A model generated the notes under the pieces. That model made no database searches. It was not told the origin of the DNA and saw only the letters and a list, made by a program, of their open reading frames with translations. Shown piece by piece: positions 5,307 through 9,064 of a stretch of 64,000 nucleotides of DNA (position 1 is the first letter of the stretch; each line of letters begins with the position of its first letter). This stretch comes from Achromobacter pestifer (GTDB lineage: Bacteria > Pseudomonadota > Gammaproteobacteria > Burkholderiales > Burkholderiaceae_B), in assembly GCF_013267355.1 (NCBI RefSeq), contig NZ_CP053985.1, forward strand, positions 4,278,001 to 4,342,000. Direction: 5' to 3'. A program made the translations under genes and the position numbers.

Positions 5307-6782
5307 TCAACCGGCGATCTGCACGCCGATCCAGAACAGGCCGGCGGCCAGCAGCATCGAGGCGGGCAGGGTCAGTATCCAGGCCATCAGGATGTTGCGC
5401 ACTGTGCTGCCTTGCAGGCCGGTCTTGTTGGCGATCATGGTCCCGGCCACGCCGGAGGACAGCACGTGGGTGGTGGACACTGGCAGGCTGAAGACGTTGG
5501 CGATGCCGATGGCGCCCATGGCGGTCACCTGCGCGGACATGCCCTGCGCATAGGTCATGCCTTGCTTGCCGATCTTCTCGCCCACCGTCAGCACCACGCG
5601 GCGCCAGCCGACCATGGTGCCCGCGCCCAGCGCCAGGGCCACCGCCACGATCACCCAGAAGGGGGCGTATTCGGTCGTGGCCGTCAGGTCGGCGCGCAGG
5701 CGCTGCAGGTCGGCTCGCTCGCGGGCCGGCAGCCCTTCGATGCGCGCGACCTTCTTGGCCGTGTCGTCCAGGCAGAGCAGGTAGCGGCGCACGGAGATGC
5801 GCTTCTCGGCCGGCAGGTCGGCGTAGTTGGACACGCCGTGCAGATCGGTCTGCAGCGCGGCGATGGTCGGCATGGTCAGTTCGGGATCGCAGCGGAAGTT
5901 GCGCGGCAGTTCGGTGGTCGCGTCCACGCGCTTGAGCGCCAGGTATTCGCCCAGCATGGCTTCATTGCGCTGGTAGAACACGTTCAGGTGGTTGGCGGCG
6001 TCGCGGGTGCGTTCGATCTGGTAGGTGGTGCTGTTGGTGTCCAGCACGAAATTGGCGGGCACGATGCCGATCAGCACCAGCATGATCAGGCCAATTCCTT
6101 TCTGGCCATCGTTGGAGCCGTGCACGAAGCTCACGCCCATGGCCGACAGCACCAGCACCAGGCGGTTCCAGAAGGGCGGATGCTTTTTGTTGTCGATGGC
6201 GCGGCGCTGTTCCGGCGTCTTGTGCATCTTCGACAGCGGCAGCCAGCGCTTGAGCGCCAGCAGCAGGCCGCCCGCCACCAGGAAGCCAGCCACCGGCGAC
6301 ACCACCAGCGACAGGCCGATGTCGATGGCCTTGCCCCAATTGACGCCGTCCGCCAGCGGCAGGTCGGTGATCAGGGCGTTGGCCAGGCCCACGCCCAGGA
6401 TCGAGCCGATCAGGGTGTGCGAGCTGGACGCCGGGATGCCGAAGTACCAGGTGCCCAGGTTCCAGGCGATGGCCGCGGCCAGCATGGCGAACACCATGGC
6501 CAGCCCGCGGCCGGTATCCACGTTGATCAGCAGTTCCACCGGCAGCAGGTGCACGATGGCATAGGCCACGCCCACGCCGCCCAGCAGCACGCCCAGGAAG
6601 TTGAAAATGCCGGAAAGCACCACCGCCAGATGCGGCGGCATGGCCTTGGTGTAGATGACCGTGGCCACGGCGTTCGCCGTGTCGTGGAATCCGTTGATGA
6701 ATTCAAAGGCCAGGACGAAAGTCAGGGCCAGCGCAAGGCTGAGGCCAACCCAGAGGTCTAGGCCGTGGAATAGGTCGAACAT
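5307..6782 (-). CDS. pit: Inorganic phosphate transporter, PiT family
   Basis: A 491-residue inner-membrane protein with about ten to eleven membrane segments. Both halves carry the PiT family signature: FINGFHDTANAVAT near residue 28-41 and VSFVHGSNDGQKGIG in the middle, with a large hydrophilic loop between segments and a final GVQIAG tail. PiT proteins import phosphate together with a divalent metal (as metal-phosphate) using the proton gradient. It is the low-affinity partner of the Pst system and may work alongside the phosphonate genes of this window. It is transcribed alone, with an inverted repeat in its 5' region. Confidence 0.93.
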   Translation of the reverse strand: MFDLFHGLDLWVGLSLALALTFVLAFEFINGFHDTANAVATVIYTKAMPPHLAVVLSGIFNFLGVLLGGVGVAYAIVHLLPVELLINVDTGRGLAMVFAMLAAAIAWNLGTWYFGIPASSSHTLIGSILGVGLANALITDLPLADGVNWGKAIDIGLSLVVSPVAGFLVAGGLLLALKRWLPLSKMHKTPEQRRAIDNKKHPPFWNRLVLVLSAMGVSFVHGSNDGQKGIGLIMLVLIGIVPANFVLDTNSTTYQIERTRDAANHLNVFYQRNEAMLGEYLALKRVDATTELPRNFRCDPELTMPTIAALQTDLHGVSNYADLPAEKRISVRRYLLCLDDTAKKVARIEGLPARERADLQRLRADLTATTEYAPFWVIVAVALALGAGTMVGWRRVVLTVGEKIGKQGMTYAQGMSAQVTAMGAIGIANVFSLPVSTTHVLSSGVAGTMIANKTGLQGSTVRNILMAWILTLPASMLLAAGLFWIGVQIAG

Positions 6783-6886: not shown

Positions 6887-7012
6887 TCAGAATTTCGAAT
6901 ACTGGAACTCGATTTCCATCGGTTTGCCCAGATTTGCGGACGTATCCGCCTGGATCACCATCACCGCCAGGACGCCCAGATACAGGAGGCATAGCCACAG
7001 GGTTCTTTTCAC
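6887..7012 (-). CDS. DltX-like membrane microprotein (41 aa)
   Basis: A 41-residue ORF starting with GTG, 13 bases after the dltD stop, with AAGGAC upstream as a possible ribosome site. It begins VKRTLW, has one membrane segment (about residues 4-20, LWLCLLYLGVLAVMVI) and a short polar tail ending EIEFQYSKF. The last six residues fit F-x-Y-x-x-F, like the FIYNEF C-terminus of Firmicute DltX as I recall it. The tyrosine of DltX is thought to carry the D-alanyl group between DltB and DltD. The position next to dltD supports this reading. Function is inferred from the motif and neighbour only. Short length makes chance a real alternative. Confidence 0.62.
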   Translation of the reverse strand: MKRTLWLCLLYLGVLAVMVIQADTSANLGKPMEIEFQYSKF

Positions 7013-7025
7013 GGTTGGCCGTCCT

Positions 7026-8150
7026 TCATGGGTAGAAAACTTCCGCGATCTTCTGGTTCACGCGCAGCCAGCCCAGTTCGCCCAGGTGCTGCACGTCCCG
7101 CAGCGTCCCCACTTCGAAGGGGGCGCTGTACATGTCCATGCAGCGCATGGCATAACGTTGGCACAGCGCTGCGACGTCCCGCTGCACTGGCCCGAAACGG
7201 TCCAGGTCCTTGAATACCAGCGGATGCAGCGGCTGCATGACGAACAGGGCGTTGACCCCGCGCTGGCGCAGCAGCGCCATCAGCGCGTCCAGTTCGCGCA
7301 GCTCGTCGCGGCCGGTCAGCGGCTGGGGCAGATAGGCGGTCTTGCCGCCCTCGGGAATGCTGCGCAGGTATTTATTGAAGAACTCGTCGCGCACGGCGTA
7401 GCGGTTGCCGCCCATCAGGGCCTGTTCGGCGCCCTGGGCCTGGGCGGCCAGCGCGTCCCAATCCACCACGCGGGCGGCCGCGGGCGGCCCTTCGCGTTCA
7501 CGTTCGGGGACGGGCGCGGCGTAGGCGGGGGCCCACAGGTCGATCAGGCGCTGGCGGAAGACATAGGCCTGTTCGGCCGCCATCGACCAGGCGACGCCCG
7601 CGTCGCCCTTGGCCTGCAGCCAGCGGACCACCTCCGCCCGGCCCTCGGGCTGCCGCAGCAGGCGCGGCAGCAGCGGGTTGGCGTGCTCCTTGAACTCATC
7701 GGGCCCCAGCCCGCCTTCGCCGTCGAACCAGCCCGGCGACAGCATCACCACCACGCGCGAGGCCGGCGACAGGTCTTCGGCCATCGCGGCCAGCACCAGT
7801 TGCATGCCCAGCGACTGGAAGCCCGAGTGGCCGTAGGCCAGCACCGGCATCTGCAATTCGTCGGCCAGATAGCGGTAGGGCACGAAGCGCAGGTCGTTGC
7901 TGGTCAGCTCCGACGAACCCAGGATCACCAGCCGGTCGCCCGTGCGCAAGGCCTGGCTCATGCGGGACAGGTTGCGCGTCTGCTCCTGCAGCGTGTTGCC
8001 CAGGTTGGGGATATAGATGCCCGGGGCGGCGGCCGGGACCGGTTCCGTCTTTAGCGCCAGGGCGTGCAGGGCGCCCCACCCGGCGGCAGCCGCCGCGGCC
8101 AGGGCCAGCGCCGCCGCCAGCGCATGCTGCCGTAGTGTGCGTTTGAACAT
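7026..8150 (-). CDS. dltD: DltD-like acyltransferase/esterase of envelope polymer acylation
   Basis: A 374-residue protein with an N-terminal membrane anchor (about residues 8-25) and a periplasmic SGNH/DltD domain. The nucleophile block is GSSEL (78-82), and the catalytic Asp-His pair is DVQH (352-355) near the C-terminus. In Gram-positives DltD completes transfer of D-alanine to teichoic acids. Bordetella has a dlt-like (dra) locus affecting envelope charge and peptide resistance. Here no dltA, dltB or dltC is adjacent: a MogA-like gene lies upstream on the other strand and pit lies downstream. The start ATG at 8150 precedes the hydrophobic anchor; the frame is open further upstream. Confidence 0.82.
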   Translation of the reverse strand: MFKRTLRQHALAAALALAAAAAAGWGALHALALKTEPVPAAAPGIYIPNLGNTLQEQTRNLSRMSQALRTGDRLVILGSSELTSNDLRFVPYRYLADELQMPVLAYGHSGFQSLGMQLVLAAMAEDLSPASRVVVMLSPGWFDGEGGLGPDEFKEHANPLLPRLLRQPEGRAEVVRWLQAKGDAGVAWSMAAEQAYVFRQRLIDLWAPAYAAPVPEREREGPPAAARVVDWDALAAQAQGAEQALMGGNRYAVRDEFFNKYLRSIPEGGKTAYLPQPLTGRDELRELDALMALLRQRGVNALFVMQPLHPLVFKDLDRFGPVQRDVAALCQRYAMRCMDMYSAPFEVGTLRDVQHLGELGWLRVNQKIAEVFYP

Positions 8151-8431
8151 GGGGAACCAATGCCGCGCGCGGCCCTCTCTATTGGGGATAGCTTTGTTAG
8201 CGGATGTTATCGAGCGGACATGGCTGGAACAAGCGCGGGAAAGCGGGGCCAAAGCCGATTCGCCTTTTTGCGACAGGGGCCATCGCCGGCGCGCTGTCCG
8301 GCGCCGCGATTCCCGCAGGGAAAGAATGCGATAGCATCCCTTTGGCGGGGTTCTTCTGGATTTCCATGATTGACCTCGCCCGCGGCCGCATCCGCGGCGC
8401 CCGAATGTTCCTCACCAAGATTGCGCAGCCC
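8151..8431. other. Divergent intergenic region between dltD and the MogA-like gene
   Basis: This 281-base stretch must hold the dltD promoter on the minus strand and the mog promoter on the plus strand. It is less GC-rich at 8175-8215. I see no convincing -35/-10 pair, operator or small gene. The plus-strand reading frame continuing upstream of 8432 has a composition unlike the conserved protein and is taken as non-coding. Confidence 0.4.
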
Positions 8432-9064
8432 ATGACCGCCACTACCCGTATCGCCCGCAAGCACCCCGACGAACTGATCGTGGGCCTGGTGTCCGTTTCC
8501 GACCGCGCTTCCAGCGGCACCTATCAGGACCTGGGGCTGCCCGCGCTGCGCGAATGGCTGGGCGGCGCGCTGGCCTCGCCCTGGCAGGCGGTGGACCGCC
8601 TGATTCCGGACGAACCGGCACGCATCTCCGAGACGCTGATCGAGCTGGTGGACGGCTGCGGCTGCGACCTGGTCCTGACCACCGGCGGCACCGGTCCGGC
8701 GCGCCGCGACGTCACGCCCGAGGCCACGCTTGCCGTCGGCACCAAGGAAATGCCTGGTTTTGGCGAGCAGATGCGCCAGATCAGCCTGCGCTTCGTGCCC
8801 ACGGCCATTCTGTCGCGCCAGGTGGCGGTCATCCGGGAAACGCCCGCGCACGCCGCCCTGATCGTGAACCTGCCCGGCCAGCCGAAATCCATCCGCGAAA
8901 CGCTGGAAGGGCTCAAGGGCGAGGACGGCGCCGTGCTGGTGCCGGGCATCTTCGCCGCCATTCCCTATTGCATCGATCTTATCGGCGGCCCGTACGCCGA
9001 AACCCGGCCCGAAGTCATCGCGGCCTTCCGTCCCAAATCGGCCCGCCGCGCGCCGCAGGCCTGA
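8432..9064 (+). CDS. mog: Molybdenum cofactor biosynthesis protein, MogA/MoaB-like molybdopterin adenylyltransferase
   Basis: A 210-residue MoaB/Mog-fold protein. The start of the domain is LIVGLVSVSDRASSGTYQD, followed by LVLTTGGTGPARRDVTPEAT, which contains the family's TTGGTG-RDxTPE molybdopterin-binding signature, and later VNLPGQPKSIRETL. The enzyme adenylates molybdopterin with ATP before molybdate insertion. Other moco genes are not nearby. The start at ATG 8432 gives MTATTRIARKHPDEL; ATG 8405 is an in-frame alternative. It is slightly longer than E. coli MogA (195 residues as I recall). Confidence 0.88.
   Translation: MTATTRIARKHPDELIVGLVSVSDRASSGTYQDLGLPALREWLGGALASPWQAVDRLIPDEPARISETLIELVDGCGCDLVLTTGGTGPARRDVTPEATLAVGTKEMPGFGEQMRQISLRFVPTAILSRQVAVIRETPAHAALIVNLPGQPKSIRETLEGLKGEDGAVLVPGIFAAIPYCIDLIGGPYAETRPEVIAAFRPKSARRAPQA

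Follow-up and report, generated by a model that had tools for sequence, protein, structure and literature searches.

The dltD2-dltX2 locus

The window analyzed here is a 64,000-nucleotide stretch of the Achromobacter pestifer genome (assembly GCF_013267355.1, contig NZ_CP053985.1, positions 4,278,001 to 4,342,000 of the forward strand). It carries a gene for a DltD homologue followed by a microprotein gene resembling dltX (hereafter referred to as dltD2 and dltX2; the other copies in the same genome are referred to as dltD1 and dltX1). The role of DltX has been understood only recently. The protein is described as a tyrosine shuttle with an FXYXXF motif and as part of one DltB-DltX-DltD complex, whereas other MBOAT pathways carry the motif in fused form (PMC12148441; this and the other papers are cited from excerpts of their text). 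The coordinates of the features are given in Table 1.

Table 1. Features of the dltD2-dltX2 locus and its flanking genes (positions within the window)
Feature	Position	Strand	Basis or remark
dltX2, 41-codon microprotein gene, GTG start	6887..7012	-	conservation, codon pattern, alignment, hydropathy
DltX2 membrane segment, residues 4-20	6953..7003	-	hydropathy
DltX2 C-terminal F-x-Y-x-x-F hexapeptide FQYSKF, proposed acyl shuttle	6890..6907	-	motif as in PMC12148441 (excerpts)
DltX2 Tyr38 codon	6899-6901	-	within FQYSKF
dltD2-dltX2 junction, 13 bases	7013..7025	-	sequence reading
dltD2, second DltD homologue, 374 amino acids, N-terminal membrane anchor and SGNH-type domain	7026..8150	-	
GSSEL block of DltD2, residues 78-82	7905..7919	-	invariant in 24/24 aligned DltDs
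DxxH block of DltD2, Asp352 and His355	7086..7097	-	both invariant in 24/24 aligned DltDs
pitA-like phosphate transporter gene	5307..6782	-	context, outside the pair; 104 bases beyond dltX2
mog/moeA-type gene (name presumed)	8432..9064	+	divergent neighbour

Read from its GTG codon, the dltX2 frame translates as MKRTLWLCLLYLGVLAVMVIQADTSANLGKPMEIEFQYSKF. DltX2 has the features expected of a DltX: it is short, has a single hydrophobic segment (mean Kyte-Doolittle value of 2.52), and ends in F-x-Y-x-x-F. Such an end was found in only one of the 298 six-frame open reading frames (ORFs) of 30-90 amino acids in the window, that of dltX2. The junction contains a Shine-Dalgarno-like AAGGA that overlaps the dltD2 stop codon (7026-7028) by its first base. 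An earlier interpretation of the letters and ORFs of the window (hereafter referred to as the sequence-only reading) had reported a 41-codon GTG ORF 13 bases after dltD, with one membrane segment and an FQYSKF end. Sequence reading and hydropathy confirmed all of these features, and the neighbouring gene proved to be a dltD homologue, matching Pfam DltD (PF04914) with 149.5 bits against a cut-off of 22.7 when the longer frame 7026-8252 was used as the query.

The GSSEL block of DltD2 lines up with the GSSEL of the 6o93 DltD, and we take it to hold the catalytic serine; Asp352 and His355 of the DxxH block are presumably the remainder of the catalytic triad.

Conservation of dltX2

A homology search with DltD2 gathered 23 Achromobacter loci, and in 23/23 of them dltD2 is followed by a microprotein with the tail EIEFQY[SQ]KF. 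Selection was estimated for 29 loci (these 23, the window and five more), comprising 26 distinct DNA sequences and 19 distinct proteins. The ratio of nonsynonymous to synonymous polymorphism (pN/pS) was 0.105 and the corresponding substitution ratio (dN/dS) 0.073, with dN/dS values of 0.148 for the membrane half and 0.026 for the periplasmic (C-terminal) half. Over 40 codons, the numbers of variable columns at codon positions 1, 2 and 3 were 12, 5 and 35. The frame was open in 29/29 Achromobacter loci, with an ATG start codon in 28/29 loci and GTG in the window strain only. By the same method, dN/dS was 0.15 for DltD2 (24 sequences). The sequence-only reading had been made to depend on retention of the ORF and its F-x-Y-x-x-F end in relatives and on conservation at the codon level, and it withstood both tests. 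The possibility that dltX2 is a chance ORF was ruled out by its conservation and codon pattern, which indicate a real gene under strong purifying selection.

A complete dlt operon at a distant locus

The window genome (G000; 7.18 Mb) contains two Pfam DltD genes. A complete operon, in the order dltC-dltD-dltX-dltB-dltA, lies on contig C2 (~1,924,500-1,928,800), 2.36 Mb from the window pair. The best NCBIfam matches of its DltA and DltB are DltA and DltB, with scores under the curated cut-offs; its DltC gave weak matches to carrier-protein models, DltC among them. DltX1, the product of the small gene between the operon dltD and dltB, ends in PIKVEFQYQQF and was recognised by neither the Pfam nor the NCBIfam models. 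DltX2 aligned without gaps with DltX1 of the window genome (43% identity) and with eight operon DltX sequences (41-46% identity); L10, Y11, G13, G29, P31, E35, Y38 and F41 were invariant over 13 DltX sequences, and a profile built from operon and stand-alone DltX found both kinds. DltX2 is thus a homologue of the DltX encoded within the full operon, and the pair in the window is the genome's second DltX-DltD pair.

This gap-free homology bears out the DltX-like identity proposed in the sequence-only reading. The description of the pair as being without dltABC holds for the locus, at which no dltA, dltB or dltC lies beside dltD2-dltX2 and the adjacent dltABC genes of a dlt/dra operon are therefore missing, but fails for the genome, given the full operon 2.36 Mb away. 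The suggestion that DltB and the carrier are encoded elsewhere is supported by this complete dltCDXBA operon. The pair thus described appears to be a duplicate arm, beyond what the sequence-only reading could see.

In Achromobacter, DltX1 has an apparent N-terminal extension (e.g. L005:9123-9332), with ~50-75 amino acids in database copies versus 41 in the Bordetella-like genomes described below; in nearly all the loci compared (the exception being L028), it lacks a methionine at the usual start.

The source names of database matches to the DltX2 and DltX profiles, where present, were “hypothetical” or “uncharacterized” protein, and a search of the PDB with the DltX profile gave zero matches. 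Two microproteins of 45-46 amino acids ending in IFQYQQF (P0076 and P0077), distant relatives of the DltX2/DltX1 family, could not be placed, and a wider unannotated set of such microproteins may exist beyond them.

Distribution and phylogeny of the two pairs

In a family survey of 268 genomes, DltD was found in 59. A profile of 13 DltX sequences from the same bacteria gave strong matches in the same 59 genomes, together with two marginal extras (G149 and G070, with E values of 0.004 and 0.007). The number of DltX equalled that of DltD in 59/59 DltD-bearing genomes, a DltD matched in two pieces being counted as one and the interrupted DltD2 of genome G082 being included. Two DltX and two DltD were present in 42 genomes, corresponding to 38/43 Achromobacter genomes and four genomes of a genus (g7) called Bordetella-like because a database Bordetella holmesii microprotein is identical to that of G082, a g7 genome; the other 17 genomes had one of each. 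A wider survey added little: DltD was found in 4/399 genomes of the order sample, three of them from the same genus, and in 1/369 genomes of the class sample, namely the window genome itself.

In the DltD tree, a branch with a support of 99/94 separated all the DltD2 sequences (12 rows, from Achromobacter and g7) from DltD1 of both genera. With both genera on each side, the split between DltD2 and DltD1 is older than Achromobacter and g7. The bootstrap was unsettled, and the root of this tree is uncertain because the outgroup is a single very long branch (G480).

In the four checkable Achromobacter genomes without the pair, the pitA and mog genes are separated by ~190-400 bases that contain no match to DltD2 or DltX2; they are likewise neighbours in 3/4 g7 genomes without the pair. 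In g7, the pair adjoins a merR-type gene, ihfA and pheT (names given by sequence reading) in three of the four genomes having it, with pheT alone listed as a neighbour in the fourth. The pair travels as a unit: it lies at pitA/mog in Achromobacter and elsewhere in g7, and has thus stayed together at two places.

In three genomes from two other genera (L065, L066 and L067, from G109, G110 and G124), the whole dltC-D-X-B-A operon directly follows pitA. The Achromobacter dltD2-dltX2 pair shares this neighbour, but is on the opposite side of pitA from the operon.

DltB as the probable donor

The window genome has one Pfam MBOAT match (E up to 0.001), the operon DltB. One dlt-type DltB adjoins DltD1 in 58/59 of the DltD-bearing genomes in the family search; in the 59th (G033), the DltB frame runs off the contig. 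The DltB C-terminus is YVFSGRSPI or a close variant of it, without the motif, in 47/47 loci showing the end (these loci overlap partly, and one more runs off). According to the mechanism presented in the excerpts of PMC12148441, an MBOAT lacking a tail of its own depends on a DltX, which makes DltB the natural donor for both DltX copies. DltB is the only candidate MBOAT donor for DltX2 in the window genome.

Proposed role of the second pair

The window pair probably provides the Dlt (dra-type) D-alanylation pathway with a second transfer arm, encoded apart from the operon and working with its DltB. D-alanine would be activated and loaded onto the carrier by the DltA and DltC encoded in the remote operon, and the single DltB would pass it across the membrane onto Tyr38 of the periplasmic FQYSKF tail of DltX2. 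DltX2, bearing D-alanine on Tyr38, would hand it to the serine of DltD2, which would esterify an envelope polymer; DltX1-DltD1 would perform the same steps for its own acceptor. We infer that DltX2 and DltD2 form a complex with DltB, carry a D-alanyl group and use another acceptor than the first arm. That the second arm serves a different polymer is a tentative proposal that we consider somewhat less likely than not. Equally provisional is the broader idea that Dlt might be modular, with one DltABC donor, two interchangeable DltX-DltD arms and two envelope polymers, the microprotein being the adaptor that plugs a new transferase into the donor.

Several observations weigh against the existence of such a second arm. 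Pfam PF12459, the Firmicute DltX model, matched neither DltX2 nor DltX1 nor anything elsewhere in the genome, even though control searches were positive in B. subtilis and L. lactis; DltX of this type is therefore unmodelled, and DltX2, not filed under PF12459, is a Gram-negative DltX by its other features. DltD2 scored 86.5 bits against NCBIfam TIGR04092, the lipoteichoic acid (LTA) DltD equivalog, below the cut-off of 150, and is best regarded as a homologue rather than an equivalog of the LTA enzyme. The predicted DltD2 model has the DltD fold, but was built on 24 sequences. The 59 genomes are related and do not, therefore, represent 59 independent events. The pair is dispensable: a second DltD/DltX was not found in 5/43 Achromobacter genomes, of which one has a completeness of only 57%, and 4/8 DltD-bearing g7 genomes have one arm only. 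Finally, dltD2 of G082 (L062) contains an in-frame TAG, the adjoining dltX2 being open; this genome has dltD1, dltX1 and dltB elsewhere.

The alternative that survives best, although we consider it unlikely, is that both arms act on one acceptor, the second pair being an isoform expressed under other conditions and adding regulation rather than a new target. The catalytic blocks and fold are alike in both arms, and the separate locus of the pair may give it a promoter of its own. However, DltD2 and DltD1 of the window genome are 43% identical and are split by the supported branch older than both genera. Moreover, 11 positions are fixed differently between 13 DltD2 and 10 DltD1-type sequences, several of them adjoining the catalytic blocks and one, Q354M, lying within DxxH. 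A diverged copy kept for so long suggests a different job, without proving it.

The sequence-only reading had also allowed for an acyl group taken from another MBOAT. A donor other than DltB, such as an acetyl donor, might be suggested by the second MBOAT present in many relatives (25/43 Achromobacter genomes), but is very improbable: DltB is the sole MBOAT match in 15 pair-bearing Achromobacter genomes, the window genome included, and a second MBOAT occurs without DltX2-DltD2 in G018 and G025. In addition, of 36 other MBOAT genes of relatives, 35 carry their own fused F-x-Y-x-x-F at the C-terminus, the remaining one running off its contig. For this part of the sequence-only reading, the window genome offers no candidate.

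In 20/36 of these other-MBOAT loci, an MBOAT with a fused FLYFQF tail lies beside a DltC-like carrier and a DltA-like ligase. In L094 (G032:C1:3646000-3653000), the one scanned of those 20, the MBOAT has DltB as its best NCBIfam match and lies next to AlgF and two ALGX-domain SGNH proteins. This locus appears to be a carrier-fed, fused-shuttle hybrid of the Alg and Dlt systems; other MBOAT/SGNH pathways are said to lack such a carrier in the excerpts of PMC12148441.

A reading of the pair as the decaying, non-functional remnant of a former dlt operon is scarcely credible. The operon beside pitA in G109, G110 and G124, albeit on the other side of that gene, and the one interrupted Bordetella-like dltD2 could be taken as traces of such a history, but the dN/dS values are low (0.07 for DltX2 and 0.15 for DltD2), the catalytic blocks are intact in all aligned DltD2 and DltX2 is open in all the Achromobacter loci. 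Nor is it at all probable that DltD2 and DltX2 act in reverse, as an esterase trimming D-alanine: many SGNH enzymes are esterases, and esterases are the next structural neighbours of the DltD2 model, but an esterase needs no shuttle, and a dedicated DltX in step with DltD argues for transfer.

Two DltX-DltD pairs with one DltB in a lineage constitute a natural experiment on the role of DltX, in which residues kept in both DltX copies should mark DltB binding and those that differ should mark each DltD or acceptor. The pair also bears on the target of Dlt in bacteria that lack teichoic acids. Gram-negative DltX genes of this type escape the Pfam and NCBIfam models used.

Comparison with known systems

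Like Gram-positive Dlt (PF12459/PF04914), the window pair combines a one-helix microprotein ending in F-x-Y-x-x-F with a neighbouring SGNH transferase of DltD fold. It differs in that DltX2 falls outside PF12459, has 41 amino acids, is encoded after dltD and apart from dltABC, and is a second genome copy; its host is Gram-negative and not known to have teichoic acids, unlike the hosts of Gram-positive Dlt. The excerpts of PMC5541007 describe dltX as often overlooked for its size, report dlt genes in a few Gram-negatives, and give a Leu in the helix and a Tyr outside it as fully conserved in Gram-positive DltX. L10 and Y38 of DltX2 are the likely counterparts of these residues, the two sets being compared by description.

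The B. pertussis dra locus corresponds to BP2987-BP2991 (PMC9858536, excerpts). The dltC-D-X-B-A order of the window genome's operon is that of four Bordetella-like genomes, whereas the window pair is an extra arm outside the operon, which 4/8 DltD-bearing Bordetella-like genomes have at another place. PatA-PatB and other MBOAT-SGNH pairs share the proposed acyl-tyrosine shuttle chemistry, but have the motif fused to the MBOAT, rather than on a separate microprotein as in the window (PMC12148441, excerpts).

Duplications of single Dlt components are known from the second dltC of L. plantarum (PMC9338922) and from dltD_1 and dltD_2, which are labels in a gene table, in L. fermentum (PMC11813365); the excerpts of these papers describe no DltX-DltD pair sharing one DltB. 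A literature search, including queries that named a second DltD or DltX, found no such pair, subscription journals being largely outside its reach. FmtA of S. aureus provides another route for D-alanine from one Dlt donor to two polymers (PMC12505958, excerpts), whereas the window system is proposed to use a duplicated DltX-DltD arm. What is new here is the duplicated shuttle-transferase arm, most likely with one shared donor.
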